From the NCBI GenBank assembly GCA_010093485.1, contig MU001509.1, positions 959,373 through 1,023,372 on the forward strand: DNA of 64,000 bases, given 5' to 3'. Under the pieces are notes generated by a model that was not told the origin of the DNA, did not search any database, and saw nothing but the letters and a program-made list of their open reading frames with translations. The stretch comes from Karstenula rhodostoma CBS 690.94. Taxonomy: Eukaryota > Ascomycota > Dothideomycetes > Pleosporales > Didymosphaeriaceae. Shown here in pieces: positions 11,072 to 60,300 of the stretch (position 1 is its first letter; every line of letters begins with the position of its first letter). Position numbers and translations under genes: made by a program.

Positions 11072-11346
11072 GATGGCAGTGAGACGTTAGCTGATCAACG
11101 AGAAATATGAATTGTTTTGTTTACAAGATACACTGACGTTGATCACATCGCGATCTGGGATGAACGAGAGAATTGGAGAAAGCGTGACTTGGGAGAGCTC
11201 AGCCCCACCTTATTCCCCCATACCCCGCTGCGGGGTTTGCGCCTGGATCCATGGCACACGATCAAAATGACATATACACGCAAAGGCGCTGGTATCTTTT
11301 CCAGCAGACACGAAATTCGGAGTTTTCCAGTATCACAGAAGCCGCG
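11072..11346. promoter_or_regulatory. Divergent promoter between MBL-A and alcohol dehydrogenase
   Basis: The 275-bp gap separates the start codons of two divergently read cluster genes. No clear TATA box is seen for either gene. Confidence 0.5.
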
Positions 11347-12471
11347 ATGGCGACCAAGCTTCCCGAAACAATGCGGGGCCAGTTCCTCGAAGCCTACAAG
11401 CAACCATACCAATTATGCACCGTACCTATACCGGAACCCTCGCATCCAGACGACGTATTGATTAGAGTTGATGCCGCATCGTACTGCCATACAGACTATG
11501 TTCTAGCTGAAGGGCAGATGCCAGGCTTTCCAAATTCCTTCCCACACATCGGGTGCCACGAGTTTGCCGGCACAATAGTCTCCCACTCCGCTCGCCCAAG
11601 TCCAGATGCAGTCAGATTCAAGATAGGCACCCGGGTTGGGGTTACCGGACGCGCGTTCCATGCTTGTCGGGAGTGTTTCGAGTGCCAGGGTTGCAAGGAC
11701 CCGATAGCCGAAGACGAGAAAGGATACTCGGTACACTGCACTCGTGCAGAGAACAACGGAATCAGCAAAGACGGCGGATTTGCAGAGTATGCCGTGGTCG
11801 ATTCTCGCCAACTAGCGCCCATACCAGACAAACTTTCGGCAGCGGAGACTGCGCCGCTCATGTGCGCTGGTATAACGATTTATGCTGCCCTGAAACGATG
11901 CCAGCTGGGATCTGGGGACCGTGTAGCAATCATGGGAGCTGGCGGAGGCCTTGGACATCTTGGATTGCAGTATGCGACGAAGATGGGGTTCAAAGTCCTT
12001 GGAATCGATGCGGCGGACGGGCCACTCAGCCTGGCTAGATCACTCGACACCGGCGCACGAATTATAGACGCGAGATCTGAGAAAGCAGCAGACGTCGTAC
12101 AGCAACTTGGCGTGGAAGACGGGAAACGCGATCTTGGGGAGAAGGGCGTTGATGCTGTTATTATTCTGCCCGAAAGTCAAGCAGCGTTCGATTATGGCAT
12201 GACACTGCTAAAATCCCACGGCAAGTGCGTGGTCGTGTCTTTCCCAGAAGCGGGTTTCCATATGTCTTCCCGGGACATTGTGTTTCGAGACATCTCAATC
12301 ATAGGCAGCCTCGTTGGGAGCAACAGAACGCTGCGGGAAATGCTGAACTTCTCTGCTGATCATGGTATACGGGCGGTGGCCAAGTCCTTCCCTCTGTCAG
12401 GTCTCAACACACTAGTCGAGGATTACCACAAGGGTGGCGGTGGCAAACTAGTTGTTGATATGTCGCTATAA
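11347..12471 (+). CDS. Zinc-dependent alcohol dehydrogenase (MDR family)
   Basis: Intronless, 374 residues from the ATG at 11347 (MATKLPETMRGQFLEAYKQP); an in-frame ATG at 11251 would add 32 residues unlike the family. Catalytic zinc ligands are in SYCHTDYVLAEG and the GCHEFAG motif. The structural zinc loop has four cysteines (HACRECFECQGC ... VHC). The NAD(P) Rossmann fingerprint is GAGGGLGHLG, followed by an acidic residue (GIDAAD), which suggests NAD(H). Members oxidise alcohols to aldehydes or the reverse in the cytosol. It is divergent from MBL-A and convergent with the regulator gene, and likely provides a redox step of the same pathway. Confidence 0.93.
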   Translation: MATKLPETMRGQFLEAYKQPYQLCTVPIPEPSHPDDVLIRVDAASYCHTDYVLAEGQMPGFPNSFPHIGCHEFAGTIVSHSARPSPDAVRFKIGTRVGVTGRAFHACRECFECQGCKDPIAEDEKGYSVHCTRAENNGISKDGGFAEYAVVDSRQLAPIPDKLSAAETAPLMCAGITIYAALKRCQLGSGDRVAIMGAGGGLGHLGLQYATKMGFKVLGIDAADGPLSLARSLDTGARIIDARSEKAADVVQQLGVEDGKRDLGEKGVDAVIILPESQAAFDYGMTLLKSHGKCVVVSFPEAGFHMSSRDIVFRDISIIGSLVGSNRTLREMLNFSADHGIRAVAKSFPLSGLNTLVEDYHKGGGGKLVVDMSL

Positions 12472-12530
12472 AAATTGAGACAGACCAGAGTCCAACTAAA
12501 GCGTCCTCGTTGCGACCAGAAAGCCGAAAG

Positions 12531-15195
12531 TCATCCCGACTCCAACATGTCTGCGTATAAATTTAGAGCACTGCCAATGACGTCGACGATCGCCCAAGTC
12601 TGCGCGCCTTTGAAGATAGTGGCCCAGACCCTGAGGACTCCAGCGCTTAAACACTTGGTGTACGCGGGTGAGTCAATAGGTACATCAGCCGGAAGAGCGA
12701 ACTCCGTCTCATCGAGCATGCTCTTGACGATTGAAGTAATCCGGCGCTCGTCTTCTGTGATAGCAGGCTCTGGACTAGGTACAGATAGCGCTTCCAACCA
12801 CTTACTCATCAAGTAGGCGCATTCCAGCGTGCAGAGAGAATGCTGTATGGACCAAATGAACGATTGAGTCTTGGCCACGAGCCGGTAGCCAATTTTAACG
12901 GGAATGCTTAATGCATGGGCTGAGTGCAGGACAGCTCGAGTAATTTTAGGAGAGCGCCGAATGGCAGGACCGGCCCGCAATGCATTGGCGATCAACACGG
13001 GATCCCGCGTATCCAGAGCTCGACCGGTGGTGTCCACGTAGAGGCGAATGTATGCCAAGCGAAGAAGGGCGGTGGAGTTGAAAGCAACTGGGCCATTGGG
13101 GCTCATGGGATCCAGAGAGGACTCGGGATTCTTCTTCCATCCAATTTGCCAATTCCTCAGGGCATTTTCGAGGTACGACACATCGTCTTGACTGAGCTCC
13201 CCCGGTCCGTCAAAGCGGCAACGGACGACTTGACGGACGAAGAATATATGCTGGATCAGGGCATGTATTAAAGCGTAGTTTCCAGCGCTTGAGTTCCATT
13301 GCGTAATGTCTCGACCATTCTTGGAGAACAGTCTCTGCAAAGCATCCTGAAACAGGATCTCTGGAGCGCCATTCTTCTTCTCCTCTCGCCAAGATGTTTC
13401 ATTTGGAGCCTTGAACTCCGCAGCACTGCATGGCAGAGTCAATTTGACTTCGGAAGTGAGTAAGAATGGCGGAATGTTGTAGACGATGCAGTGGAGATTC
13501 GAGAAGCCGTAAACAATGAACTTGGTTCGTTTGATCGTCTCACGGCGTATCCAGTCCTCCCAGGATAGGTCGTACCGTAACGGTTCGTTCTCCAATCCAT
13601 CATCGCGAATCAGGGTGGCCAAGATGGACTGAATTGCAAGAGCTTCTCGCAAGATCTCTTTGTGTTTGGCCCAAGTACAGAGAGCCATAAGCAGCAGCAG
13701 AGCCTGAGCTGTTTGCATGAGATCTTCTCCCATCGGTACAATGTCAGAACCGGATGGAAGACCAAGTGGGCCAACAGTGGATGGAGCACGGACAGGGCTT
13801 CGTGGCCGCGATACAACACCTGGTTCGTGCGAGGAAGAACGATCCGATTCGGCCCGACGGTGTAGCTCGACTAAGCGCGCGTCTCTCCTGCGGATGCGAT
13901 GCGTGGCTATCGTACGGCTCACATTAAACAACTCTACCCCTTTCTCTCCCTCAAAGGTGTATTGGGCGCCCACTGCGGCGAGTGCAAGAAGTAGTTCGAT
14001 GGAGCAGCCGTCGACTGACAGGGTGGGAATGTGCAAGAAGGGCATGTGCTCATGAAAGCCATTGATATAGGCAGCTAGGTATCTGCAAAGCGCCAAACGA
14101 GTAGGTAGTTTGAAGTCCACGGGAAGTATCGAGGAAAACTCGTCTAGTTTCTCTACAATCTTCTGTCGGTCATCCAGGGATATGTCTGCAAATCCTCGGC
14201 GGCTATCATGCTGACCTAGATCTTCGGGCTGCAACGAAGGCAACCTCGAACCGAAACGCGAAAAGGTATGATTTTCGTCGTTTTGGGGTTGAGGTACAAG
14301 TGTACAAGCTAAAGGTGTGCTTGCGTTTGGAAGGAACTCGTTTCCGTACCCAAGCGACTCCGGTGAAAAGAATGGCATAGGTTGTTCTGTGTTGATGATG
14401 CTCGAAAGGCGGTATGAGGCCAGCGGCTCATTGTCCCAGAAAGCTGCTAGACTGTCTAATGATTCCCCGAGGCTGGGACCGCCAATCTGCGAGCCATTCA
14501 TGTGAACAGTGCTCTGGGGTATTGCATGCGTTTCAATCGTTTGCGAAATGGTGTTCTGCAGTGGCAGCGGACCCGCGTGGTGGGAGTCGCCGTTCGCCAT
14601 GGTTGCTTGTGTACCCTGCAATGACTGATACTCTGCTGCCATAGAGAGTGCTGCTAGAGAAAACTCGTCGTTCTGGCTGTAATGCATGGGTACAGGGGGC
14701 GGATGAGGGTGGAGAGGCGGTTGCATGTCCATGTGCACAGCTGCTGGGGTAGACATCATACTGGGGATCTCAGGGACCGGCCGGCCAGCATCGAAGCTGC
14801 TGCGTATACGTTTTGGTGGCCTTTGCTCTTGCATGACATATTCGTCGACAGTATGTTGCTGGTCTTTGTGGTTGAGGCTGTGCTTGTGGTGGGTCAATCG
14901 TTCGTGTCGAACAAGCAAGTCACTTTGAAGATCAGCACCCCACAAATGTCGGCCACGGCCACCGGTTGCCTTACCTGCGTGTGAAAGAGTAGTTACAGGC
15001 ACCGCAACTGAAGGGCTTGACCCCGCTGTCTTGGGGGCGCATTAGAATGGCTCAATGTGGCCGTGCGCACGACTTACGGATACGCTCATGGCGTTGCAAA
15101 TGCTCGAGGCGCGCAAAGCTGCGACCGCAGTGGTCACAATGGAAGCGTTTCTCCTTCTTCCCCACCGGCGCTTGTTCGCCCGAGGTTGTTTCCAT
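12531..15195 (-). CDS. C2H2 zinc-finger transcription factor with fungal-specific TF domain
   Basis: Three exons: 15195-15078, 15029-14975 and 14922-12531, 854 residues. The introns split the zinc-finger region. After splicing, two adjacent classical fingers appear: C20/C23/H36/H40 and C48/C51/H64/H69 (RFHCDHCGRSFARLEHLQRH, then KPFSCGACNYSFTRSDLLVR). A long Gln/Pro/His-rich linker follows. The fungal-specific transcription-factor (middle homology) domain begins near residue 320 (LPTRLALCRYLAAYINGFHE). This two-finger plus MHR architecture is a known fungal regulator class. The gene lies inside the metabolic cluster between the alcohol dehydrogenase and copy A of the decarboxylase-like gene, so it is the obvious candidate for pathway-specific control. 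No nuclear export or kinase features were noted. Confidence 0.92.
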
Positions 15196-15653
15196 GCGAG
15201 CTAGATAAGACGGGCGGCTACAGCTTCATTGGTCCACCAGCAGTGCCAGCATCTCAGACCGTCCGCAGTGAGCCCTGTGCTCCGTTGGGGACATCAAGCG
15301 GCGTTTGGGAGGTTGGAGGTCGGGGAGGAGGGAGTAGTAGCAGAATGCGGAGAGTGCGGGACGTGAATGCGGAGAAACTCATGTGTGGGGACGCCACCAA
15401 CCGTCCAAGGCTTGGCGGGACGAGCATCTGAATCTGCGTCATCACCGAGGCACACATAGGGTCGGAAAGCTTCATATTTTGCAAAAAGGGTATTTTGAGC
15501 GGTGGACTGGTGTTGAGCAGAGCAACAGACGAGCTTTGTGGGCCTTGCTTGCTGGCCCGATATCCAGGTCGCGTCTGCTGCAGTTTCATTTGTTGACGCG
15601 TTGCGCTGACCGGCTCTCCTGTCCACCCGACCTACATCCCACCTTCACCCGAC
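15196..15653. other. Promoter region of the cluster regulator
   Basis: About 460 bp upstream of the transcription-factor start and downstream of the decarboxylase-like stop. It contains only short open frames. Confidence 0.5.
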
Positions 15654-16193
15654 CTACGCCCGCTCGCTCTTGGCCCCGAGCTCTCGTGGCATCTCGCCCT
15701 TCTCTGCCATGTCATTAAGCACCTTCTCGGCTGTTTTCATCGCGTCGACGCCCGCCGGCACCCCGCAGTATGTTGTTGCGTGGATGATGGCTTCGCGGAT
15801 CTCGAGTTCCGATAGGCCGTTGTTGCGAGCACCGCGAACGTGGACCGCCAGCTCAGGTGCGCGGTTCAGCGCCATGAGCATGCCAATGTTAAGCAGACTT
15901 CTCTGCTGCTTGCTGAGCCCCGGCCGTGTCCATGCATAACCCCAGCACCATTCGGTCACGAGTTCTTGTCCTGCTCGCGAAAAGTCGGTAGAACCATTGG
16001 CGAGAGCCCTGTCAACATACTCCTCTCCTACGACGCTGCGGCGCATCTTCAAGCCCTCATCGAAGAGCTGTTTGTGGAGGTCGTCGTATTTCGGATCCGA
16101 TGACATGGCGCCAGCGATTGGTGGGAGCTCCTTTATGGGTGGTAGGTTGGCTGGGGGCTCTCGAGATGGCTGAAATTGAATTGATCTGAACAC
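15654..16193 (-). CDS. Carboxymuconolactone-decarboxylase-like protein, copy A (single domain)
   Basis: Intronless frame of 179 residues; the ATG at 16106 ([18 protein letters not shown]) gives 150 residues and fits the family better than the first ATG at 16193. The CMD/AhpD fold is recognisable from [20 protein letters not shown], then [20 protein letters not shown], and [20 protein letters not shown]. The last stretch matches the gamma-carboxymuconolactone decarboxylase end, where a conserved His/Cys region sits. Bacterial PcaC decarboxylates 4-carboxymuconolactone in the protocatechuate branch; many fungal members have unproven activity. The next gene, HIBADH-A, has the same orientation 210 bp upstream. 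A role in lactone or aromatic breakdown fits the neighbours. Confidence 0.85.
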
Positions 16194-16403
16194 GAGAGGA
16201 TGCTGTGTCTCAAGTAGGTATTTGGAATCTCAGAACAGGACTCTACAGAATGATGTTCATGTGGGCCGGCACCCGTGTTCCTTCGTTGGGGATGCCCCTC
16301 ACCACTGCCCCTCTTCTCCAACGGATGCAGCATTGCGTCACACCCAGCACGAGAAATCCCTCCGCCGTCATTGTTCGCATGTCGCTTCCTAGGAGAGGCT
16401 ACT

Positions 16404-17415
16404 CTATGATCCATTCATCGTCGGCTGCCAGTCTTCGTTACCACCGAGATATCTGTATACCACGCGCGAGTCCAAATCACGACAGTTGGGATCTTTGCTT
16501 GCGCCATCGTATGTTTCCAGGCCCACCTCTCCCAGAACATTATGGGATCCCACACGCTTTGCCATATCCACTGCCAGGCCGAAATCTTTGCGCATCAGTT
16601 GCACCTTGAAACCCTGCTTGTATCCACCTGAAGAAGGCGCTTCCGGGTACACATGCGGAACAGGGCAAAAGCGATCGCAAATAGCATTTTGCGCGGTTCC
16701 TGCAGCGTACACTTTGGCTAAAGTGCGAGGGTCGAGGCCAGATCTCATGCCCATGTCGAACGCTTCCGAGCAAGCAATCGCTATGACACCTGAGAGGTAA
16801 TTGTTTGACAACTTCGCAGCAAGTCCCAGAGAGGGACCGCCGCATGGAATGACCTGCTTTCCCATCATCTCCATCAGCGGTGCTAGCTTCTTGATGTTCG
16901 GATCCGACTCTGCGCAGCCTAAGAAGAATGCTATTGTGCCTTTGATCGCGCCCACAACGCCCCCGCTCACTGGGCAGTCATAAAATGATGCGGTGGGGAA
17001 ATGTTCCTCGATATGTTCCTTGACTTCCAGACTAGTCGCCGTGTCTATCGTGGAGCAATCGATGAGCAGCTTGTTGGAGATATCCGCGCTGCAGACGCCG
17101 TGCGAGGGATCGAGGTAAACTGAGCGAACGTGCGAGCCTTCGGGCACCATCGTGATGATTGTATCCTAATCCGTTAGCCTGATCATCCAACAAGCTGACA
17201 TGACCTACCGCTTGTTGTGCGACATCTTTGGCGTCTGTGGCCCTCAACACTCTGTCTGGGAATTGCGAGCAAACTTCGTTTATCGCTTCCTCGATAACGT
17301 CGAAAACGTATATCCGCGACTCTTTTGGGAGCTTGTTTGCCAAATGCACTAGCATTGGTTTCCCCATCGCTCCCAGGCCAACAAATCCCAATGTCTTGAA
17401 CTCGGATTCGCTCAT
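16404..17415 (-). CDS. Beta-hydroxyacid dehydrogenase (3-hydroxyisobutyrate dehydrogenase family), copy A
   Basis: Exons 17415-17209 and 17165-16404 (43-nt intron GTAGGT...TTAG, phase 0), 322 residues, the usual family size. It shows the N-terminal Rossmann motif GFVGLGAMGKPM, the substrate-binding signature DCPVSGGVVGAIKGT, and the catalytic lysine region KLSNNY. The family reduces or oxidises short beta-hydroxyacids with NAD(P) (3-hydroxyisobutyrate, tartronate semialdehyde, succinic semialdehyde). No clear mitochondrial presequence is seen, unlike valine-pathway enzymes, so a cytosolic pathway-specific role is likely. It is divergent from MBL-B with 303 bp between the starts. Copy B is at 20190-21224. 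Confidence 0.92.
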
Positions 17416-17718
17416 GTTGCTGGTCGAGTATCAGATAGACACGACGGCTTGTACGAACGACAGTCTCGCGCTCTGCCAGAGGTTGTCGACACCTGAGGGT
17501 CCAACCCACCCTAGCCCGTTTCTCTGCCCCACACTAGCTGTTGGCGTCTAGTCGTCAAGGCGGGGTATGCCTCCATGCATCCGGTTGGGGTAGCTCAATG
17601 AATATGCCTTGGCACGATGTTACTCAACAACCATGCAGTTGGCAAGGCCCAAGATCCAGAATCTTATGGGCGGCCAAATGCCTTGTTGTGCAATTCAAAG
17701 TAGTGTGGGTTACTGAAG
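17416..17718. promoter_or_regulatory. Divergent promoter between HIBADH-A and MBL-B
   Basis: 303 bp between two divergent cluster genes. It contains TTGTTGTGCAA at 17683-17693, which recurs in the HIBADH-B/MFS promoter at 21401-21411, and a related TCAACAAC at about 17622. It is a candidate operator for the cluster regulator. Confidence 0.45.
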
Positions 17719-18778
17719 ATGGCTTCGTCGGTTCTCGTGGCACAAAGCGGCCCACCATCACCACCACCCGACAGAGCAATAGTCTCACTCCATGCACTCT
17801 CAGCCGGCCACTTCACACTTCCAGAATATCAGTTTGTGCATCCGGTATCGAGAGAGGCGCGAAAAACGGTGCCCTCGCTAGCATTCCTGATCCAGCATCA
17901 CGATGTCCAGACGGGCAAGCGGACCCGCATCGTATTTGATTTGGGCTTGAGGAGGAACATCAGCAGATATGCCCCTGCAATACAAAAACACACGGCAACC
18001 CGTCAGCCTATGACCACTGATCCGGATGTCGTGAAGAGCCTCGCCCGAGGGGGTCTGAGGCCGGGTGATATCGACTATGTTCTCTATTCGCATGTACGCA
18101 CACACTCCTATCTAATCCATTAATCTCACCAACAATCTCACCAACAATACATCGCAGATCCACTGGGACCACATCGGCGAACCCCGAGATTTCCCCTCCT
18201 CTACGTTCCTGGTAGGCCATGGCGCGTTCAACCTCCTGAATGGCACGTCTTCAGCATTGCGCGGCGGGCACTCCTTCTTCGAGAGTGATCTCCTTCCCGA
18301 AGGACGGACAATCGAGTTGTCGCAGCCTTCAACCCAAGGAGTTGTTCAACACAAGTCTGACACAGTCCAACTGGAAGGGAAGCTCAGTCTTTCACAATGG
18401 AAGCCATACAACCATCTCCCTTATACACTCGACATATTCAACGATGGATCCCTCCTCATAGTAGATGCACCCGGTCATCTGCCTGGGCATGTGAACATCC
18501 TTGCTCGGATCTCCGAGACGCAGCAGGTGTACTTGGGAGGCGATGCTTGTCACGACAGAAGGCTCTTAACCGGCGAGAAGCAGATCGGTGAATGGAGCGA
18601 TGCGGAGGGTCACGTGTGCTGCATTCATGCTGACAGAAAAGGTGCTGAAGAGACGATCCAGCGGATCGGGAAGCTGGAGAGTGAAGGCGTGGAAATCATA
18701 TTCGCGCACGACGTGGAGTGGGAGAATGACGCTGCGAACAAGACGCGATTCTTTGGTGCAGGCGCCAGCGAGCTTTGA
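17719..18778 (+). CDS. Metallo-beta-lactamase-fold hydrolase, copy B
   Basis: Exons 17719-18093 and 18158-18778 (64-nt intron GTACGC...CGCAG, phase 0), 331 residues. The intron falls exactly at the zinc motif, which reads HIHWDH (residues 125-130) only after splicing. Other ligands match copy A: VDAPGHLPGHVN, GGDACHD and a final AHD. Copy A has no intron, so either this one was gained or copy A lost its own; the level of divergence shows the duplication is not recent. It is intracellular by lack of a signal peptide. It is expected to have the same reaction type as copy A (lactone, lactam or ester hydrolysis), perhaps with different substrate range or acting on a later intermediate. Confidence 0.92.
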
Positions 18779-19109
18779 GGCCGTGTACATTTCTACTTGA
18801 TGGACAAATTCTGAACCATGTTCCACGATTACTGCCAGGCGAAGATGATTGTGAGTGCGAGCTGACTAGCAGTTTGTCGCCGGAGCATGGCAAGAGCCGA
18901 GAAATGCCGCTGCTTACACCTTCCCCGCACCAAGAGTTGGAGAATGTGGGGCTCCATCCACGACTCAGTACCAGCACCATTTTCCCATCCGCCTCTCACC
19001 CGCCTCTCACCCGCCAAGCCCTGACCCTCTGTATACCACGGCCTGCACCCCGTCTCGACTACACGCACGCACGCAAGCTAGACCTAATCTAGCCAACTCC
19101 CCTCTCCAC
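18779..19109. other. Promoter region of the two-domain CMD gene
   Basis: 330 bp between two co-directional cluster genes. The last 100 bp before the ATG are C/T-rich, as in many fungal 5' leaders. No TATA box is evident. Confidence 0.45.
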
Positions 19110-20078
19110 ATGCTCCTTACCACCATGTCGCACTCGCAGCGCCCGCCCGCCTACTCCATCCTCTCCACGCCCCCAGACATGTCGCTCAGCCCAGAGCAAC
19201 AGTCGCTGAAAGAGCGTTTCGACGCCTCGCTCGGCGCCTCCGCCTTCGACGCCTCGTGGTCGCGGCTCCTCAGACACAGCCCGGACATGTTCGCCGCCTC
19301 GGTCCGCCTCGCCGCCGTGCCAAAGCGGAAAGGCCACCTCGCACTCAAGATCCAGTCTCTGATCTCGCTCGCGGTGGCTGCGGCAAGCACGCACCTCCAC
19401 GTGCCCAACATTCAGCGCTACACCAAGCAGGCGCTCGCAAACGGCGCGACGAAGGCTGAGATCGTGGAGACGTTGTGTTTGACGAGCACGCTGGGGATCC
19501 ATGCGTGTAATATTGGGGTGTCGCTGCTGGTTGAGGTGCTACGGGAGGAGGGGAGGGAGGTAAAGAGCGGGATGGAGGGGATGAGTAAGGAGCAGTGGGA
19601 GCTGAAGGAGGAGTTTGAGAAGAAGAGGGGATATTGGCATGGGTTCTGGGAAGACTTTTTGCGCATGAGTCCGGAGTTTTTCGGGGCGTATGTGGAGTTT
19701 TCGAGTGTGCCGTGGGTGAACGAAGGGGGTAGGGGGGTGTTGGAGCCGAAGGTATGTGAGTCTAGATCTTGAACTAGGCATACGTTGAGGATGATGCACG
19801 CGGTAATGTGGTGTCGGAATCGTTCCCGGGGCGATTTCTAGTCGAGGTACGGATGTCAGCTAACATAAACGCAGGTCAAAGAACTGATATACTGCGCTTT
19901 CGATTGCGCGGCGACCCATCTATACAAGCCCGGCTTGAAACTGCACATGAAGAATGTGCTCCAGTATGGAGGCACGCCAGAGGAGATCATGGAGGTGCTG
20001 GAGCTAGCATCGTTACTGAGCATAAGCACAATGGACGTTTCCTTGCCCATTCTAGAAAAGGAACTGGAAAGTCAATAG
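19110..20078 (+). CDS. Carboxymuconolactone-decarboxylase-like protein, copy B (two tandem domains)
   Basis: Exons 19110-19751 and 19875-20078 (123-nt intron GTATGT...CGCAG, phase 0), 281 residues; starting at the ATG 19125 (MSHSQRPPAYSILSTP) gives 276. Two CMD/AhpD-like repeats are visible: the first around LKIQSLISLAVAAASTHLHV with NGATKAEIVETL, and the second, completed only by exon 2, around VKELIYCAFDCAATHLYKPG with GGTPEEIMEVLELAS. It differs from copy A (single domain, PcaC-like), so these are two distinct members of one superfamily and not a simple duplicate. Function in the pathway is inferred from neighbours: decarboxylation, hydroperoxide reduction or isomerisation are all known in the superfamily. 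Confidence 0.85.
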
Positions 20079-20189
20079 TCGGAATCGAACTTAACAACAC
20101 AACCACAACCATGCACCATCCCGCGCGTGTTTAACCAATAGAATTCGGGAGACATTGGTAGCTTGTTCACTCTCAGCAATGTATCATCC

Positions 20190-21224
20190 CTATTTCTTCT
20201 CACTCTCATTCAACCACTTATACACCACCCTCGCATCCTTCCCCTTATACCTCGCATCCCCCATCGCCTCCCCAAACGCCTCCAACGTCGGCTTATCCAG
20301 CACCGTCCGCGCCCCCACCATCTCGGCAAGCTCGCTCCCCATCTTCAGCACCTTCGCACACAACTCTATCCTAAACCCGCCCTCATAGTCCCTCGAGCTC
20401 GGCACGTTCGCCTGTATCCCAGGCACAGGGTTGCTCTTCGAGGTAACCCAGCACTGGCCGCCGCTAACATTGATAACATCTGTCAAGAGCGCGAGATCGA
20501 GGTTCATCTTTGCGCCGATATTGAGGGCTTCCGAGGCAGCGAGCGACGTGATGGCGGAGAGGTAGTTGTTGATTACTTTGAACGCGGTGCCCGCGCCGAC
20601 GTCGCCGCAGAGGAAGACGGCGTCGGCTTTCCCCATGTGCGAGAGGTAGGATTTGACAGCCGGAAACACGTCTTTGTTGTCTGTGCCCACCATGAAGGTC
20701 AGCGAGCCGTCTTGGGCGCCCATGGGACCGCCTGAGACGGGTGCGTCGACGAAGGTGAGGGTGCGGGCTACGTTGGATTCTCTCGCGCGCTTGGCAACTT
20801 CGAGAATCGTTGCTGTTTCGATGGTGCCGCATTCCATTATTATCTTCGAGGTGCCGCCGTTTGCGAGGGCCTTCTCTGCGCCGGCTATGACGCCCGTGGA
20901 GGGGTCGAGGTAGACGTCTTTTACGGCAGCGGAGCCGGGGAGCATGGTGATGACTGTGTTTGCGCGTTGGATGGCGTCGAAGCCGTTCTGGACGGTTTCT
21001 ACGGGGCCGTGGTTTGAAGTCTCGGAATGGAATTTCTCGAGGGCAGAGGGGACTACGTCGCATACTAGGAGGGTGTGGGTGGAGGGGAGACCTTTTCGGA
21101 GGTTGATGGCCATGGGGTAGCCCATTACGCCGAGGCCTGGGTTGCAGTGTTAGTATGAGGCATATATGGACGAGGTTTGAAGAGACTTGCCTATGAAGGC
21201 TACTGTTCTGTCTGGGGACGACAT
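20190..21224 (-). CDS. Beta-hydroxyacid dehydrogenase (3-hydroxyisobutyrate dehydrogenase family), copy B
   Basis: Exons 21224-21191 (34 nt) and 21136-20190, 326 residues. The intron begins with GC (AG before, then GCAAGT) and ends CCCAG; only this GC-AG splicing restores the Rossmann motif VAFIGLGVMGYP. It carries the family signature DAPVSGGPMGAQDGS and the catalytic Lys region FKVINNYL. It is clearly diverged from copy A. The C-terminal helices (KMGSELAEMVGARTVLDKPT) match the dimer-forming domain. It is divergent from the MFS transporter with 692 bp between. A redox role on a hydroxyacid or semialdehyde intermediate is expected. Confidence 0.92.
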
Positions 21225-26594: not shown

Positions 26595-27827
26595 ATGGCT
26601 GAGACCTCTTCTGATCGTTCGACCTTACTGACCATCGCGAGTTTCCTCCTGGTTTCCTGGAACAAAGCCGAGCTCCTCAGATTGTTGCAGGCAACGCAAC
26701 CGTTCAGGCTCTCGGATGTCTTATGTTCTTTGCCCGCGTTTACTCTCGCGCGGTCTTAATCGGCACATGGAAGAGTGAAGACTGGGCACTATCAGCAGCT
26801 TGGGTAGAAATTATCGCGCATTTCTTTCTTGATCGTTGCTGACGCAAGTCTGTAGCTGCTAGCCACAGGATACTCGATATGTCAATACGGTCAGGTCAAT
26901 CATGGCTCCGGGAAACATCTTGTTGCGACTCCCATGGCCGAGGCCGTCACGGGCCAAAAGTACGCTTTCGCGGCTCAATGCTTGCTTTTTCTCGCTATTC
27001 CCATGCCGAAAGTCAGCATGTGTCTCTCCTATCTCAGGATCTTCTACTCGGACGTAGCCGGTCGGCGCCTCATCTACGGCTTGCTTGTTCTGCTGGCATT
27101 GGCCATGATACCGATCGTGGTCGAGAACTTCTTCACGTGCAGGCCCTTGAGCCTTTACTGGGAAGAGTTTAGGCCAAAGAGCAAGTGTTTGAAAGACTTG
27201 CCAATACTTTTTATCCACGGTAGCTTGAACCTTTTCATCGACGTTGCATTGATGAGTATTCTCATTCCACGCATCGTCAAGCTGAAGGTCACCAAGCAGC
27301 AAAAATGGGCGCTGGTCGGCATCGTGCTTCTGGGGTCACTCTCGGTGGTGGCAGGGATCATCCGGATGGTACGCGTCGGCACGTTGTTGAGGAGGAAGAA
27401 ACTGGACCCTCCGTGGGATATGTACGATGTGTCCATCTGGTCGTCGACCGAGATTTATGTTGCGCTCATGTGCGCGGCGGCGCCAGGAATCAAGCCGCTT
27501 GTCAGCAAGTTACTACCCAAGTTGTTGGGTACGACGCTCCGTAGCCGGACTGGAACGATGGGGGCGCAGTCGAACCACATCGAGTTGGCGTCGAAGATGA
27601 AGCGATCACCGCTCGCGTCGAAACACTTGTCGGTGCGGAAGAGCAACAGCACAACCCGACTCACGTCGGCCCACGGGCCATACGCGGAGATATACAGTAC
27701 TGGAAAGCATGACGAGGAGAGCTTGGACGGAAACAGCGAAGTGGACGAAGGATCAGGCCGCTTGAAAGTGGAAGATGGCATTCTGCGGAATACGAGCGTG
27801 GTCGTCAAGTCGGAGAAGCGCATGTAA
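26595..27827 (+). CDS. Pth11-like (rhodopsin-domain, SAT4-type) integral membrane protein; 5' end disturbed
   Basis: The confident part is an exon ending at 26803 (PGFLEQSRAPQIVAGNATVQ ... SEDWALSAAW) joined across a 52-nt intron (GTAGAA...CTGTAG) to 26856-27827. It has about seven hydrophobic helices, a conserved Cys before TM3, PLSLYW-type loop and a long Ser/Thr-rich cytoplasmic tail. The N-terminal frame does not connect to an ATG: the ATG at 26595 is in another frame, and a shift by one base within AGTTTCC (about 26640) would join them. The alternative is an unseen tiny 5' exon ending before the AG at about 26641. Pth11-like proteins are surface receptors in appressorium-forming fungi, but many members have unknown roles. 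It may be a pseudogene. Confidence 0.65.
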
Positions 27828-28416: not shown

Positions 28417-30355
28417 TTGATTGAAAAGATCCCGCCGCTTGCTTTCGCACATTTCATAGCCGTTTCGGCATTCGTTCTGGGTACCGTAGCTGCTCCGGCA
28501 ACGACTGTCTCAGCCGCGCCTTACGCCGGCTCCGCAACCGCAGACTCGTTTCCCCCGACAGACAGTACGTCGCTCATACTCAACCGCGTTGAATGCGTGT
28601 GTACGCCTTCTCTGGAAATGTTGATTTTTGCCACGCAGCGGCTGTCAATCCATCCTTGTTCCCCCCGGAGAGTGTAGTTGGCTTCGCTGGCCCTACGCCG
28701 GCTGGTCTTGAGCCTGCCGCCGCACAGACGGCACCCGCGTACCCATACAACGAGGGCGATGCCAACGAATTCCCGCTCGTCAATCCTCAACCGCACGGAA
28801 GCAGTACTGGTTTCACGTTTGACATCGGCAAGTACTGGGGAAACCTCTCGCCGTGGTACAGCCTACACTCTGCCGACTACGGACTGCCTGACGCAGATCC
28901 ACTGATCCCCGAAGGTTGCGAAATAACGCAGTTGCATCTGCTCTACCGTCATGGAGCCAGATATCCTACCAGTGATGCAGCTCCTCCAACCTTTGCTCAT
29001 AAGATTGCCAACGCCACCGAGACCGGCTTCGAAGTATCTGGCGAGCTCGCCTTCCTTGGAAATTGAACGTATAAGCTGGGTGCCGAGCTCCTCACTCCTT
29101 TTGGACGCAGTCAAAACTTCCTCCTCGGTGTTGCGTACCGTCAATTGTATGGGCATCTGCTCAACAACTTCACAGAAGCAGGGACAATACCCGTCTTCCG
29201 CACCGAATCGCAAGATCGCATGGTCAAGACAGCCCAGAATTTTGCGGCGGGTTTTTTTGGTGTCCCTGAATTCCTTGACCAGGTTAATCTCGAAATTTTG
29301 GTTGAGAACGCTACTGTGAACAACTCTGGCGCGTCGTACGACATGTGTCCCAATGCAAATATCACGAGCCGGGGAAGCATAGGGAGTACAGTCGCCGCAC
29401 AGTTTGCCAACAATGCATTCAACGCGACAATTGCTCGCTTGCAGTCGCAGGTAAGTTAGGTCCTTGAGCCGCAGATGGGCCGAGTTCCGTCTGATCACGC
29501 TATCAGATCTCGGGAATCAATTTCACTTCCACCGATGCCATTGCGATGCTTCAGCTCTGCTCGTATGAAACAATCGCTCTCGGATATTCCGCCTTTTGCG
29601 ACTTGTTCAGCCAGGAAGACTTCCTGAACTACGAGTACTACTACGACTTGGTATGATGCCCGCTGCATCCTTCACTAGGGCTCCAGTGAGCCGACTGACG
29701 GCTTTTTCTAGACTTTCTACTACAACAACGGCCCTGGCTCTCCAGTGGCTGCTGCCCAAGGCAAGGGCTACCTAGATGAGTTCATCGCACGATTCACGGG
29801 AGAATACCCGCAAGCGAACTCAGCACTAAACGAAACATTCGACAACACATCGACTTACTTCCCGCTCAACCAATCCATATATGCGGATGCTACGCATGAA
29901 GTCGTTGTTCTTGATACGCTAACCGCCTTTAACCTGACGGCGTTGTTCCAAGGCCCGCCCTTGAGTGTCACCGGCAACCGCGGCCAGAACAGCTTCCTGG
30001 CTAGCAGGCTCGTACCGTTCGCCACACATTTTACCACTCAGGTGCTGTCTTGCCCTGTTTACCAACCAACCAAGCAGATACGCTTCATTATGTAAGTGAC
30101 ATTGCGCTCAATGCTTTCTGCATTTCACACTTTCTATCAACCCAATCTCTGATACTTGTATACAGCAACGACGCCGTCATTCCCATCAACAACTACCCTG
30201 GCTGCCCCGAGAACCTAAACGGCCTCTGTTCGTTTGAAAACGTCGTCTCGGTCCTCCAGAGCCGAAGCAGTGAGATAGATTTCAACTACGACTGTTTCGC
30301 CAACTACACGGCCGCTCCGGGCATGGATTACAACGGTCGGGCACCAAACTCTTAG
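28417..30355 (+). pseudogene. Secreted histidine acid phosphatase/phytase-like gene, inactivated
   Basis: Five exons: 28417-28564, 28639-29450, 29507-29650, 29712-30091 and 30166-30355; all splice sites are GT-AG and frames are consistent over 558 codons. The product has a secretory N terminus (HFIAVSAFVLGTVAAPATTV), the catalytic motif LLYRHGARYP near residue 153, a second catalytic region ADATHEVVVLDTLTAFNLT, and many N-glycosylation sites, as in extracellular fungal acid phosphatases/phytases. Two defects are seen: no ATG opens the frame (TTG stands where the start is expected, about 60 bp after a TATA box), and an in-frame TGA at 29064-29066 (codon 192) interrupts a conserved stretch between AFLGN and TYKLGAEL, where relatives carry Trp. 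No intron removes it. Otherwise the frame is intact, so inactivation is recent or the base is a sequencing error. Confidence 0.8.
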
Positions 30356-31669
30356 AAAACCGCTTGTGTTGGTCTTTTTCGCAATGAGATCTCGCGCATG
30401 TCTACATCAAGAGACGTGACCATGTGGGATTATAATGTACATAATGAGGTCACTTCATCGACCCACTTCGTTCCAAGATCGAGAGGTGCACCGCGCCGTA
30501 GTGCACAATTGAACGGAAACAAGCACCACGAGTTGATATGTTCTATTCTCAGAAAATCATAGAATGACCGGGCATCATTGTCTACGTGTCTCCTGGATAG
30601 CTCTGAGGGGCTCGGCGCTTAATTGAATATATAATCGCGGTAGCCGAACTGGCGAGCTCGATGACCGAGGCGAGGAGCGACAAGCGCCGAGCGGAACGCG
30701 TTCGTCTCGGGTATCGCGGATCCAGAAACGCAGGCATGGACCCTCGGGTGGCGAATATCACGATACAGCTCGCGAGAGCATGGTGTCATTGTGGGAGGCG
30801 ACTTCGGCACAAGGCATGACGAAGTGTACAGTCTTACATGGAAATACCTCCAGGCGGTGAATCTGACTGGTAAGCGGATCAGAAGCCCCGTTGAGCCAGG
30901 ACATCAATCTGCTCTAAGGCGTTACACCTTTATCGTATTTCGCCCTAGCGGTCACCGCGACTGGTTGTCTCCACATCACCAACATAGGCTGGCCTGGAGC
31001 GCATGGTGCTCGTGAAGATGCCTCAGGTTAGCTGATCAATGGTAGTAGCACTTCCGCCACATCCCGCTTCATTCTGAAGTCAGCCTTATCTAAATTTACA
31101 TCTTCTTGCGTGCTTATAGAATAGCCCGCACCACGGATACCCCGGACCCATTGAACCATCCTTTTCCCCACATAGTCTGCCCTACGCCTGTCTCGGTGCG
31201 CGCCGAACAAAGCTTCTTTGAAAGCCCAAGAGCCGATCTGTTGGACCGCCGTTCAGGCAGGTCCTACCCATCGGAAGTTTCGGTTCGGGGAATGATATGC
31301 TCCGCTATCGATTTTCGTACACCGAGGCGACGGCTGCGGCGGATGATCGCTAGGGTGGAGCTAGCACGGCTCTTTGCGAGTGGGCCCTGGACCAAGGGTC
31401 TTGTGTGGAGAAAGCTGGGGCTGCAAGGTTAGGTCGAGGAAAAGGCTGGTAATGCGATATGCATTTTGTGCAAGTGGCATCTTTGAGATTGAGGGAGACT
31501 TGAATTCATTGGGGGAGACATAGATTTGTTGGGGGAAACATAGGTTTGTTGAGGAAACCGTAGATTTATTGAGGGAAACATGTATCTATTGGGGAAAACA
31601 AAGATCCATAAATCGTTGCAGGGCTGTCGTACCAATACAATGCACACGCTTTCTGTCCACATGCCGCGC
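30356..31669. other. Gene-poor stretch
   Basis: 1.3 kb between the phosphatase locus and the UstYa-like gene. Weak open frames on both strands (30619-30810 minus, 31106-31432 plus) have no domain features. A 20-bp minisatellite lies at 31508-31606. Confidence 0.5.
31508..31606 (+). repeat. 20-bp minisatellite
   Basis: Five imperfect units of ATTGGGGGAAACATAGATTT type in a row, just downstream of the UstYa-like stop codon. Confidence 0.85.
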
Positions 31670-32588
31670 CTACCACGTCAATCCATCGCCCGCATGGTAG
31701 TTGTCCAGATGCATAATGCCCTTCTCCGGCTCTACATCGAAGTAGTTGGCCGATAAAGTTTCTGTGTAGTCCCGGAGTGCATCCCAGTCGTTACACTTTT
31801 TGTCCTGCCCGTGACCCGTCTCTCTATGACCATTTGTCCAAAGAATGGTGTCGTCGACGTTACACATGATGTACTGTCGAATTGCGTCGAGGCAGTGCAT
31901 GTCATGTGGACGAGACCAGTTCCACGCACGTCCCTGTTCCATCAGAACGTAGTGTTCGCGAATTACTTTCTAGATTTGTGTCAGTGAAAACCGGAGAGAT
32001 CTTGCCAGAGGTGACTTACCGTGCAATGCATAGCATGGTACGCTTCAATCACGTACATGAATTTCCCGCTCTCGTCTGGGAGAGGTACGCTGGGCGGCAG
32101 GTTCTTCTCCGCAACGTAGTCGGCGTCCAGAGCTATCACTCCGTGGCCCGGAAGGATGTCGTCCCATGCCTTGGATGCCACCTCCTCGTCGTTGGACATG
32201 TATTTTGAATGCGCATAGATTGTTCGGGATACTGTTCGCTCATGGCTTAAACCCGCTGCACCCTCATCAGTGAAAGTGAAACATGTTGGTCGGTGAGTAG
32301 TGACATACTCGGACCCAGGAAGCGTGCGTTCACGCTCCGTTGGATCTCGACAATATATATGCTCTCGACCGCAATAACGAGAAATGCGAACGTCAACAGC
32401 ATTTTCGAGGTGTTGTTTCTGAGCCAGGATTTCCAGGATTGGGACCCTCTGCTCGGAGTTTTGGGTGAACTCGACACCCCTAACAGTGCCTCGGAAATAT
32501 CGTATTGTGCTGACGAACCCTGATCGTCGTCGTGGGACTCCTCAAATGATACACTAACATAAGAAGACTTTTCTGAAGGGAACGCCAT
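31670..32588 (-). CDS. UstYa-like (DUF3328) oxidase-type protein
   Basis: Three exons: 32588-32309, 32246-32020 and 31969-31670 (introns GTATGT...TTTAAG and GTAAGT...TCTAG), 268 residues. A cytoplasmic Ser-rich N terminus is followed by one membrane anchor (MLLTFAFLVIAVESIYIVEI, about residues 63-82). The lumenal domain has the two HxxHC motifs that define the family, YHAMHC (H164-C168) and HDMHC (H191-C195), the second continuing LDAIRQYIMCNVDDT. DUF3328 proteins (UstYa/UstYb) carry out oxidative cyclisation of ribosomal peptides in ustiloxin, asperipin, phomopsin and victorin-type pathways. All family motifs are present, so the gene looks functional. The Kex2-repeat precursor starts 1.4 kb away in the opposite direction, which strongly suggests they work together in the secretory pathway. 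Confidence 0.9.
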
Positions 32589-32706
32589 TGTGATGGTAGT
32601 GCAGGGAGTAAGTGAGGAATTTGATGAGGATCAATGGACCTTGGGATTACTTTGGCAGCACGCCTCTATACCAAGTGCTCACCCTACCTTTCTCAGTTTT
32701 CGTAGG

Positions 32707-33180
32707 TTAGTATCCACTTTTTTTTTCCTTAGAGCCCGTCGCTTCAGCTCGTCGACTGTCTGTATAATCCTCCGGGGTGTTTGCAGACATGCACTGCTGC
32801 CAACTCTCCATGTGCATATTGAGGGTGGCTCCACGTTGAGGAACGTATGCACAGCCTTGAGTAACCCTTACGGTGTAGGTTGCTCCGTCCGGGTAAGGCC
32901 CGAGCTGCGGGATCCTGATGGAACCACGTTTTTTACCTGGCTTGCATGGATGACTTCCTGCCGCGGTCAACAGATGTGGGAAGGTTGTTGTGATTCCGAT
33001 TTCTGGACCCTGGCAGCGAAGCGATGAAGAGCACGAATGTGGCTCGCCAGACGTAAAGTTTAGACCACCGACGGTTTGCCGACCGTTTTCTACGTTATTG
33101 TTCCTTTCGGAAATCTGCCGGTTGGCGCCTATGAGAAGCGCGCGGCCGCTGCCCGTCCAGGTTAGTTTGTGCGTAAGCAT
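32707..33180 (-). CDS. Hypothetical protein between UstYa-like gene and peptide precursor
   Basis: A 157-codon frame with no family I recognise. It has five cysteines spread over the middle and end (HSCSSSLRCQ, HPCKPGKKRG, TQGCAYVPQR, SWQQCMSAN) and several Gly/Pro-rich turns, which would fit a small disulfide-bonded protein. The frame from its own ATG lacks a signal peptide. A possible intron of 63 nt (GTTAAC...CTAACCTGGACGGGCAG, good branch site) would join it to an upstream short exon starting at about 33250. It lies inside the putative peptide locus, so it deserves a transcript check, but it may be a chance frame. Confidence 0.3.
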   Translation of the reverse strand: MLTHKLTWTGSGRALLIGANRQISERNNNVENGRQTVGGLNFTSGEPHSCSSSLRCQGPEIGITTTFPHLLTAAGSHPCKPGKKRGSIRIPQLGPYPDGATYTVRVTQGCAYVPQRGATLNMHMESWQQCMSANTPEDYTDSRRAEATGSKEKKSGY

Positions 33181-33440
33181 CCTTCATGTGGGGCAGCGGC
33201 ACGACGTTAACGAGGGAAAGGATTGCGAGGAGTGCCGTGACATGCGGTTGCAGTGCGGCGGCTGCTAATACGAGATAACCACGCGGCTGCACGCCGAAGC
33301 TGAGGATCAGATTGTCGATCGTCAATCCAACCAACACGAGTCATGGTGGAACACGGAAGTACGTCCGACCAGCAAAGACCTAAACAGTATAGAGGTTGAG
33401 TTTGCCATGGGCACGAAGTGATGTCGTGCATATGGAACAA

Positions 33441-34028
33441 TATCCTAAACGGTTTAGTGCGACCTTCGGAGACCGAAACTTATAGCGTGCATCCGCGCTC
33501 AGCGCACATCCTGACTGCCTGACCGACCGCCGCTCGAATCCCGGCGCCCATCATCCAGGATGGTGCCCCAGCATCACGGGGATTCTGACAAAGATCACGA
33601 AGCCACCCTAAGGCTGCTCGCTGGTAGCCTGGCCGATGCATGCTAACTCTCGCAACGAAGTCGATAGTACCCGTGGAAAATAGTCGCGCTTCGTGGAGCC
33701 CGTACGGCCACCGTCATAGGGTACCGTTCGCTGAGACGAGCTTCAGAGTGGAGTAAACGAGTGTTTATGATGGCCGATATGGTGTATACATATATCGTGA
33801 GAAGATCGACCATGGATGATCATCACGAGCAATTACCACAAGATCAGCATCACTTGCAGCATCAAAGTTCTACACGACGCCTCCACCAACGCAAAGGCCA
33901 ACCGCATCCGTCTCCACGCAATCGCCAACTTGCTGCTGCCCAGGTCTCACCACTGAACAGCGGTACTTGCCATTTAGCCACCTGCACCTTTCCCATCTTA
34001 CGCCCTTATCACTACAACCCTGGTCAAT
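33441..34028 (+). promoter_or_regulatory. Upstream region of the peptide precursor gene
   Basis: About 590 bp without coding features before the precursor ATG. A TATA-like GTATACATATAT lies near 33785, about 240 bp upstream, and the last 130 bp are C/A-rich like a fungal leader. Confidence 0.4.
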
Positions 34029-34580
34029 ATGCGTTCCATACTCGCATTCGTCACTGTTGCCCTCACTATGGCGCTCCACATCGGTGCTGCCCCTCTAGCA
34101 TGGGATAACAATTCGGCAGCCTCGCAGATTGAGCGGGATCTCTCAGGTCTCAGGCGGAGCGCTGATCCGGCTACTGCCGACCTGAGTGGGTTGAAGCGTT
34201 CGAGCACCGATCTGTCCGGACTGAAGCGTTCGAGCACCGACCTATCTGGTCTCAAGCGGTGGATCATCGAGCTCGTTCAGAGAGCATCCACCGACCTCTC
34301 TGGGCTGAAGCGCTCCGCTACCGACTTGTCCGGCCTCAAGCGATCGACTACCGACCTCAGTGGGTTGAAGAGAGCAGCCACCGACCTCTCTAGCCTGAAA
34401 CGCTCCAGCACCGACCTTTCAGGGCTCAGGCGATCGACCACCGACCTTTCAGGGCTCAAGAGGGCTACTACCGACCTCTCTGGCCTCAAGCGATCTACCA
34501 ATGATCTCTCAGGCCTCAAACGATCCATGACCGATCTTTCAGGCTTGAAGCGTTCCAACACTGATCTCTCCGGCTTGTAA
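34029..34580 (+). CDS. Kex2-processed repeat precursor (putative RiPP precursor)
   Basis: Intronless, 183 residues. A signal peptide (MRSILAFVTVALTMALHIGA, cleavage likely near GAA-P) is followed by a short spacer and 14 copies of the core DLSGL (one DLSSL), mostly as xxTDLSGL. These are separated by 13 dibasic sites (11 KR, 2 RR). One degenerate unit WIIELVQR replaces a core in the middle, and the protein ends exactly at the last core. After Kex2-type cleavage and removal of the basic residues this would release about 8-residue peptides such as SSTDLSGL, STTDLSGL and SNTDLSGL. Such secreted KR-repeat proteins are precursors of fungal dikaritin RiPPs or of unmodified signalling peptides. The nearby UstYa-like gene favours the former. 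The usual aromatic core residues (Tyr/Phe) are missing, so the chemistry would be new. Residues flanking the core vary while DLSGL is fixed. Confidence 0.9.
   Translation: MRSILAFVTVALTMALHIGAAPLAWDNNSAASQIERDLSGLRRSADPATADLSGLKRSSTDLSGLKRSSTDLSGLKRWIIELVQRASTDLSGLKRSATDLSGLKRSTTDLSGLKRAATDLSSLKRSSTDLSGLRRSTTDLSGLKRATTDLSGLKRSTNDLSGLKRSMTDLSGLKRSNTDLSGL
34127..34580 (+). repeat. Approximately 30-bp coding tandem repeat
   Basis: Fifteen units of about 30 bp encode the KR-separated cores. Third positions differ between units although the core amino acids do not, which shows selection on the peptide rather than fresh repeat expansion. Confidence 0.9.
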
Positions 34581-35682: not shown

Positions 35683-37006
35683 ATGTCGACCAACGCTGCG
35701 GGGCTTTACGTTTTGTGCAGTCTTTTGCCGGCGCTGTCGACTATCGCCGTTGGTGCTCGCCTTTACGTCCGGAACCTTAAGAAGCAGAAATTCAGCGTTG
35801 ACGATGGGACTGCGCTGGCCGGTCTGGTAAGTTTCGTTGCATGCCACTTCCTGCACTGTGCTGATGGTGTGGGCAAGATCGGGCTATGGGGTGTCGCGGG
35901 CGTGATTCTTGATGGTGAGTCGAGCTTGTGCGTTGTTTATTGTGTCTTTTCTGATTTGTGAATAGGCACAAGACGAGGACTGTTCGGAGGAAATTCCAAT
36001 CTCGACCCGGTAACCGGGGCACTGTTACGCTCGTGGCGAGAAGGTCCCAATGTCAAGGTGCGACACCCCACCTCGGTATCCCACGACCCCGGTGTACTGA
36101 TGCCAAGAATAGTATTCGTGGATTGTCCCCATCATTACGGTCGTGGCTCTGGCGCCGATCAAACTCAGTGTCATATTCCTGTACCGCCGAGTCTTTCACA
36201 TCAGCCGATTCTTCCACTATTATTCCATATTCCTATGCGTTGTACTGGTCGCTTGGGCCATCGCGTTTATGTTCGCGAGTATCTTTCAGTGCGGTACAAG
36301 ATCCTGGGCGTATTGGACGACGGTGCAAACCATCAGGCAGTTCTGTGGCGACACGGGCGGCGCAAATGTCGCACTTTGTTTTTCCGACCTATTCATTGAT
36401 ATCTTGATCCTCATTGCGCCCTTGGTCATGATATGGAAGATGAACTTTTCCATGTGGAGAAAGATGCAGATCGTGGCTGTGTTTGCACTGGGCTTTGTAT
36501 CCACCGCAGCTGCTGCTGCACGCGTGTACATCATGTGGGAAGACGCTTATGGTACTATGATCTCCCTTAGCACATGTTTCCAGCCTACTGACTGCGTTTT
36601 AGATACCAAACGCGGACACACGAACTTGATAAGAGAGAATACCAAAGTCGTCATGTGGTGCCTCATCGAGATCAGCTCCGCACTCATCGCCTGCTGTCTA
36701 CCCGTTCTCCGACCCATATTCGCAGACACATGGGTATCACGTCTCTTCTGCAAACTACAAAACCGAATTCATCCGGAAGATCCGAGCATCTCTCCAACGG
36801 ACCGCCAGCTCGAAGAAGGCATGGCGTTCCGCAGCATCGGCGGGACTGACTTCAACGTGGTGAAGCGCGACTCGATGTCAAGGAAGGACTCGAAGATGAG
36901 CACGAATGTGGAATCCCGCGAGACCGACCCCACAAGCGATATCGAGAAGTCGACGGGACAGATAGATGTGATGTTCAAGGAGATAAATATCTCGAAGGGG
37001 CAGTAG
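35683..37006 (+). CDS. Pth11-like (rhodopsin-domain, SAT4-type) integral membrane protein
   Basis: Exons 35683-35826, 35878-35914, 35966-36057, 36113-36551 and 36603-37006, 371 residues. The first and last introns are each exactly 51 nt, have no stop in frame and would be readable if retained, but both carry a branch-like CTGAT/CTGAC and splicing gives better family matches. The predicted protein has an extracellular N terminus (MSTNAAGLYVLCSLLPALST), about seven membrane helices (KYSWIVPIITVVALAPIKLS, FSDLFIDILILIAPLVMIW), ENTKVVMWCLIEISSALIAC as the family TM7 motif, and a Ser-rich cytoplasmic tail. Members resemble the surface receptor Pth11 without the CFEM domain. No ligand is known. It lies 1.1 kb from the secreted-peptide precursor. 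Confidence 0.85.
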
Positions 37007-57130: not shown

Positions 57131-57132
57131 AG

Positions 57133-57217
57133 AGTTTCCCTATAATAGGGATACATTTACCTAGATAGATATATTATATCCCTATATAGGTATATTATAT
57201 CCTTATATAGGGAAACT
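57133..57217. repeat. Inverted repeat/hairpin at the composition boundary
   Basis: AGTTTCCCTATA at 57133-57144 and its exact reverse complement at 57206-57217, with further A/T pairing inward. It sits where GC-balanced DNA ends. Confidence 0.7.
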
Positions 57218-60060: not shown

Positions 60061-60300
60061 GTATAGATATAAAACTATAACTATTTAGTATATTACTTTA
60101 TTTATAATATAAAGAGTTAGACTTATAGTAATATAAGTATAGATATAAATATAGAATTATATTTACTTAATATATTACTTTATCTATAGTATAGAGGATT
60201 AGGCTTATAATAATATAAGTATAGGTATAAGTATAAAACTATAACTATTTAGTATATTACTCTATTTATAGTATAGAAAATTAGGCTTATAGTAATAATA
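60061..60300 (+). repeat. 82-bp tandem repeat inside the AT-rich block
   Basis: Three diverged units; the landmark TATTAC recurs at 60091, 60173 and 60255, followed each time by a TTAGRCTTATA-like string. Confidence 0.75.

Follow-up and report, generated by a model that had tools for sequence, protein, structure and literature searches.

Two divergent genes at the locus

The locus described here lies on contig MU001509.1 of Karstenula rhodostoma CBS 690.94, within a stretch of 64,000 nucleotides (positions 959,373 to 1,023,372, hereafter the window). It comprises a gene for a Kex2-processed repeat precursor (KEP) at 34029..34580 on the plus strand and a gene for a UstYa protein (DUF3328, PF11807) at 31670..32588 on the minus strand. 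The genes are arranged head to head and diverge from an intergenic stretch of 1440 bp (32589..34028), with starts 1.44 kb apart. The original prediction, made from the letters alone, had proposed here a new locus for ribosomally synthesised and post-translationally modified peptides (RiPP) composed of such a precursor and a UstYa-like gene. The pairing was recognised correctly; the kind of locus is not new, because a DUF3328 gene has been published near 1758 of 7878 KEPs (22%; Umemura 2020, PMC7329392). KEP–UstYa pairs are a known and common kind, and what is unusual here is the aliphatic, aromatic-free composition of the repeated cores.

The precursor gene is a single exon with one open frame (ATG at 34029, stop at 34580) and encodes 183 aa. 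It carries 14 cores (34137..34577), 13 of them DLSGL and one DLSSL, which are followed by KR or RR in 13 cases and by the stop codon after the last. The frame and the core count thus agree with what had been predicted; the secretion predicted with them is an eye reading. The N-terminus (34029..34091) resembles a signal peptide, having, by eye, a hydrophobic start and a putative AA|P site (MRSILAFVTVALTMALHIGAA|P) followed by a conserved P[L/I]AWD. When the protein is cut in silico after [K/R]R and the dibasic pairs are trimmed, 14 pieces are obtained: a leader, a 12-mer (SADPATADLSGL), a 16-mer (WIIELVQRASTDLSGL), and 11 octapeptides that fit the pattern xx[T/N]DLS[G/S]L. A single non-repeat segment, WIIELVQR (34260..34283, plus strand), occurs right after a KR site. 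Trp is found at residue 25 in the leader and at residue 78 in this segment, and none of the 14 repeated cores has an aromatic residue. The earlier statement that the core lacks Tyr, Phe, and Trp is therefore correct for the repeats and incorrect for the whole precursor, and the conclusion drawn from it, that oxidation must avoid aromatic residues, overlooks the nearly invariant, Trp-bearing WI[I/V]ELVQR.

A KEP detector, which requires at least three alike fragments and fires on 4 of 68,500 shuffled open reading frames (ORFs), recovered 13 alike fragments from the precursor, the sole such ORF within the window; the repeats are therefore not a product of chance. The precursor has a single match in the 44.3-Mb genome. 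No identical protein was among the hits of a search of 5.8 billion protein entries, which is why the gene appears to be unannotated and which suggests that automatic annotation overlooks genes of this kind. Two Pfam matches of the precursor (Spectrin_Anc-1 and CovS-like_HAMP) were below the cut-offs, are probably repeat-derived, and were rejected.

The UstYa gene consists of three exons (32588-32309, 32255-32020, and 31969-31670) separated by canonical introns (GTATGT..CAG and GTAAGT..TAG). The spliced gene is intact and encodes 271 aa, with the motifs HAMHC (H167-C171) and HDMHC (H194-C198); an intact DUF3328 gene about 1.4 kb from the precursor, with both HxxHC motifs, had indeed been foreseen. 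Its two downstream exons match PF11807 with 42.6 and 26.4 bits (cut-off 25), and its sequence matches a protein of Karstenula rhodostoma (P0004) at 100% identity across all 271 aa. Relatives were found in Paraconiothyrium brasiliense (82% identity, 100% query cover), Bimuria novae-zelandiae (77%, 100%), Paraphaeosphaeria sporulosa (92%, 65%; a partial protein), Periconia digitata (62%, 77%), and Pleosporales sp. CAS-2024a (52%, 55%). In the alignment, the closest three (one partial) show 77-92% identity and the two most distant 55-56%, and all six His and Cys residues of the motifs are invariant in the 6/6 aligned proteins. The predicted structure contains helices at 52-90, 164-183, and 193-210 in a low-confidence model (mean predicted local distance difference test score 39.9); the layout expected of the family is one membrane helix at the N-terminus, with the HxxHC motifs on paired helices and two copper ions. 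A sequence search of the PDB (E up to 1) gave no relative. A minisatellite of about 20 bp (TTGAGGGAAACATAGATTTG) is present at 31488-31605, just 3' of the gene.

Neither a second UstYa nor a tyrosinase was found in the window by a whole-genome six-frame search (E up to 0.001), as the original prediction had also noted, and a Pfam scan of 40 window stretches, which was not exhaustive and included no search aimed at methyltransferases, showed none of these. With one precursor, one UstYa, and no tyrosinase found in the window, the locus is about as small as possible and therefore offers a clean test of UstYa action on aromatic-free repeat cores.

Between the two genes lies a 158-aa open frame (32710-33183, minus strand) with several Cys residues and no Pfam match; a hydrophobic stretch (33095-33340) comes before it in a different frame. 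Codon-usage scoring was tried as a coding test and rejected, since real exons could not be told from other frames by their scores (-0.196 for exon 2 of UstYa), and it is therefore uninformative on this frame.

Core conservation and relatives of the precursor

Comparison of the 14 core units with each other gave a proportion of synonymous differences (pS) of 0.77, with synonymous sites near saturation, and a proportion of non-synonymous differences (pN) of 0.11, part of which arises from changes that link the two groups of Ser codons. For the three residues preceding the core the non-synonymous value is 0.40, as opposed to 0.11 in the core units. All six Arg codons are in use for the R of the 13 dibasic cut sites. 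The high pS, the low pN, and the varied Arg codons therefore indicate that the core peptide and its dibasic cut site are held by selection and are not recent copies.

A search of the same 5.8 billion proteins, with 1689 candidates, gave three hits to the precursor at E up to 1, two of which are convincing. They are a metagenome protein of 313 aa (P0001; 72% identical to the window precursor in the alignment) and protein N0V90_004161 of Kalmusia sp. IMI 367209 (P0002; 66% identical). The third (P0003, E 0.17) was set aside because by eye it looks like a coiled-coil protein with no relation to the precursor. The N-terminus with AP[L/I]AWD, including its signal-like part, and the repeat plan are common to the three sequences. 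The segment W-I-[I/V]-E-L-V-Q-R occurs once in each of them and is nearly invariant (7/8 residues). Upstream of the P0001 gene, resemblance to the window begins at 33770 and is seen in pieces at the translated level, corresponding to the last ~260 bp of the intergenic stretch.

At the third core position, 14/14 window cores have S. In P0001 this residue is A in ten DLAGL copies, accompanied by several decayed units with S or without the motif; in the Kalmusia protein it is T in seven cores, and the eighth, last unit is DLSQA. This position is thus nearly uniform per precursor (S, A, or T, decayed units aside) despite the near-saturated synonymous sites of the window gene.

The regular 10-residue period of the repeats, together with the fact that cleavage is a prediction, might suggest a repeat protein that stays uncut and is secreted as a structural or wall protein. 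We consider this improbable, as the dibasic sites persist through codon change and are mostly kept in the relatives (at least two are lost in P0001, as KH and KDR, and one in P0002, as KER), and the genome has a match to a Kex2-type protease (one P_proprotein match, PF01483, 105.7 bits).

The genomic place of the precursor seems to be kept in Kalmusia. In the window it is followed by a Fung_rhodopsin-domain gene (35683..37006, plus strand), and in Kalmusia the rhodopsin-like orthologue (N0V90_004160) is next in number to the precursor (N0V90_004161), on contigs of equal size. This adjacency in both genomes would fit a peptide that serves as a ligand for the neighbouring rhodopsin-domain membrane protein. 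Such a role is very improbable: Karstenula and Kalmusia both belong to Didymosphaeriaceae, and members of one family share local gene order by default; a second rhodopsin-domain gene is present in the window (26856-27824); and Pseudopithomyces has the rhodopsin gene without a precursor hit.

Other KEP–UstYa pairs in the same genome

The 44.3-Mb genome contains at least 59 PF11807 matches, which give 42 gene-like places after merging within 1 kb. Besides the window, we scanned for KEPs the 20 best-scoring other UstYa stretches (10 kb each) and 12 lower-scoring ones (5 kb each). A KEP-like ORF was detected in 9 of the 20 (L010, L011, L012, L017, L018, L021, L024, L025, and L029), at 0.65-2.8 kb from the nearest UstYa, and seven of these nine KEPs have a divergently oriented UstYa within 3 kb; the KEP of L010 shares its strand with the nearest UstYa, and it is another UstYa there that diverges from it. 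The count leaves out other-frame hits in the L010 and L029 arrays and hits in L001-L009 that overlap longer stretches or the window. The background rate of KEPs was judged from shuffled ORFs, the 64-kb window, and the average of 5.25 KEPs that has been published for ascomycete strains (PMC7329392).

The window pair, divergent over about 1.4 kb, represents the usual design of this genome, since divergence is the commonest geometry among the nine others; at least nine further pairs are thus available for comparison. All ten KEPs, including that of the window, have a similar codon pattern (pS 0.27-0.89, pN 0-0.12), in a comparison of 2 to 14 units each with core patterns picked by the analyst.

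A further two-repeat precursor (AYARGDGAPLGFKIN, AYTRVDGSPLGFKIN), apparently split by an intron, was noticed in another UstYa stretch (L023:6447-6707 and upstream); its signal-like stretch precedes the apparent intron, and it is outside the count of nine.

Does the UstYa protein act on the precursor?

The window precursor shares with KEPs, as named by Le Marquer (2019; PMC6339444) and surveyed by Umemura, a signal-like N-terminus and many similar short peptides between KR or RR. The closeness of a KEP precursor to a UstYa homologue is also the arrangement of dikaritins, which are defined by cyclisation of the product by a UstYa homologue and include ustiloxin, phomopsin, asperipin-2a, victorin, and epichloecyclin (PMC10512285). 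The window locus differs from them in its aromatic-free repeated core, the one UstYa found, and the lack of any tyrosinase hit in the window. In ustiloxin, asperipin-2a, and phomopsin an aromatic core residue is the site of the cross-link (PMC7329392). Among DUF3328-associated KEP repeats, 65.6% have Tyr, 34.4% lack it, and 20.5% have Trp (PMC7329392). Chemistry at non-aromatic residues is reported too: three UstYa members are credited through gene inactivation with the dehydro-Ile, dehydro-Asp, and dehydro-Pro of phomopsin (PMC10880069), and hydroxylation and halogenation are reported for the family as well (PMC10880069, PMC12435403). An aromatic-free core may therefore still be a UstYa substrate.

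We suggest that this precursor is a probable substrate of the window UstYa, and we lean, with similar reserve, towards regarding the locus as a small unit in which two genes, a KEP and a UstYa, together make peptides. The two genes would be co-expressed; the precursor would enter the secretory path and be cut by Kex2 after KR or RR, and a carboxypeptidase would trim the basic pair, leaving about eleven octapeptides and the one 16-mer as products. UstYa may face the lumen as a binuclear copper enzyme, by analogy with the cyclochlorotine hydroxylase CctR, and might oxidise the octapeptides, the 16-mer, or both. The sites could be aliphatic or hydroxyl-bearing residues of the repeats (by dehydrogenation or hydroxylation) or the Trp in the conserved WI[I/V]ELVQR. 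Several results speak for this reading: selection on the core and its dibasic site, with a like codon pattern in the nine other KEPs; two relatives of like design; the Kex2-type match; the intact UstYa with its invariant motif residues; the reported action of UstYa proteins on non-aromatic residues; and the nine KEP-bearing stretches among the 20, which support the pairing.

The analogy with CctR is based on HxxHC(x)nHxxHC, by which a 2025 paper defined the DUF3328 family as binuclear copper enzymes (PMC12435403) and which the window protein shares. Cys 208 and 231 of the window protein are 23 residues apart, the spacing of the inter-chain pair C190/C213 reported for CctR, in proteins that were compared unaligned. 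CctR acts on a non-ribosomal peptide, and use of copper by the window protein is proposed by likeness.

A less probable, still substantial alternative is that the octapeptides are secreted unmodified, serving as signal, surface, or defence peptides, and that the adjacent UstYa has another substrate. In its favour, 6120 of 7878 KEPs in the counts given by Umemura are without a DUF3328 gene nearby; that survey sought the gene among the 15 nearest and found it most often at the next position (PMC7329392). The lack of aromatic residues in the repeats fits this alternative. Several of our results weigh against UstYa action on the precursor. Phe, Trp, or Tyr is present in every repeated core of the nine other KEPs (for example QWYDITYVD, VDQAFVNVAYYGLKER, DDVWLW, ATYAPLVYTGGLK, and TEFAPWYRATNILPASD), which share the two-gene design with the window pair and differ from it in their aromatic cores, so that the aliphatic repeats are the odd one out among the KEP–UstYa pairs of this genome. 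None of the 12 weaker-scoring UstYa stretches (5 kb each) has a KEP. By summed tblastn score to the window UstYa, the first place belongs to L039, with no KEP in 5 kb, and the second to L010, with a KEP; the best single piece comes from L017, a KEP stretch. Judged by these scores, the window UstYa does not appear especially close to UstYa genes beside KEPs.

The relatives add to the same side. The pairing check that had been proposed gave a mixed outcome: the place of the precursor beside the rhodopsin-like gene was, by locus tags, found again in Kalmusia, and a UstYa orthologue was not found among its annotated proteins (E up to 1e-20, 327 candidates) in a search that took only proteins of 149-474 aa and would have missed split gene models and pieces under 149 aa. 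At 235 aa vs. 371 aa, the rhodopsin model of Kalmusia is short, and gene models in this genome may therefore be fragmentary. UstYa occurs without a precursor hit in Periconia, Bimuria, P. brasiliense, and P. sporulosa, a point that is weak because the precursor of the window itself is also absent from the protein database; UstYa is also well conserved, as if it had its own job. The UstYa and rhodopsin genes of Bimuria are on contigs of 773,127 each, presumably the same contig, and P. brasiliense and P. sporulosa gave a UstYa and, with E up to 1e-40, no orthologue of the rhodopsin gene; Pseudopithomyces gave the rhodopsin gene and no UstYa. On these comparisons, the precursor–UstYa pairing appears in one genome and is neither shown nor refuted in relatives.

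Against unmodified secretion stands the arrangement of the genes. With 42 places in 44.3 Mb, a UstYa lies within 1.5 kb of a given point with a chance of 0.28%, a figure that is not a p-value because the locus was picked for its pair, and the layout is divergent as in 7/9 of the other KEP–UstYa pairs.

If UstYa does act on the precursor, we assign somewhat less than half of that expectation to the Trp-bearing WI[I/V]ELVQR peptide as its sole target, which makes this version unlikely when taken by itself; the DL[S/A/T]GL repeats would then be an unmodified second product or carriers. The weight given to it comes from the segment being the best conserved and from Trp in the cores of six of the nine KEPs found at other UstYa stretches. 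Seven of its eight residues are the same in all three sequences, against a core that shifts between S, A, and T, and in P0001 the repeats close to the segment decay. Against it, there is one copy of the segment to 14 cores, the comparison includes three sequences only, and the QR after the segment is not dibasic.

Less likely again is a combination in which one precursor yields two kinds of product, many aliphatic octapeptides with a species-set third residue and a single near-invariant Trp peptide, and in which UstYa oxidises the all-aliphatic core (to dehydro-Leu or dehydro-Asp, or by hydroxylation) with no aromatic cross-link. If true, such an aliphatic-core path would be dikaritin-like and not described for this kind of repeat core in the literature examined. 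The strings DLSG, DLTG, DLAG, and GLKR are absent from PMC7329392 and PMC6339444 as far as the main text goes, and DLSGLKR, DLTGLKR, DLAGLKR, WIVELVQR, and WIIELVQR gave no match in literature text; supplementary tables may list the type.

Other features of the window

Three further regions of the window were noted. A histidine-phosphatase (phytase-like) gene at 28593-30355 has an in-frame TGA at 29064-29066 with the same frame open on either side, which represents either a pseudogene or a sequencing error. At 56000-64000, GC content drops to 0.35 between 56 and 58 kb and to about 0.20 beyond 58 kb, with many tandem repeats, as would be expected of DNA mutated by repeat-induced point mutation. 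Finally, the region 10070-21149 contains two hydroxyisobutyrate-dehydrogenase-like and two carboxymuconolactone-decarboxylase-like genes, together with genes for a zinc alcohol dehydrogenase, a metallo-beta-lactamase-like protein, and a Fungal_trans regulator, and perhaps forms a catabolic cluster.

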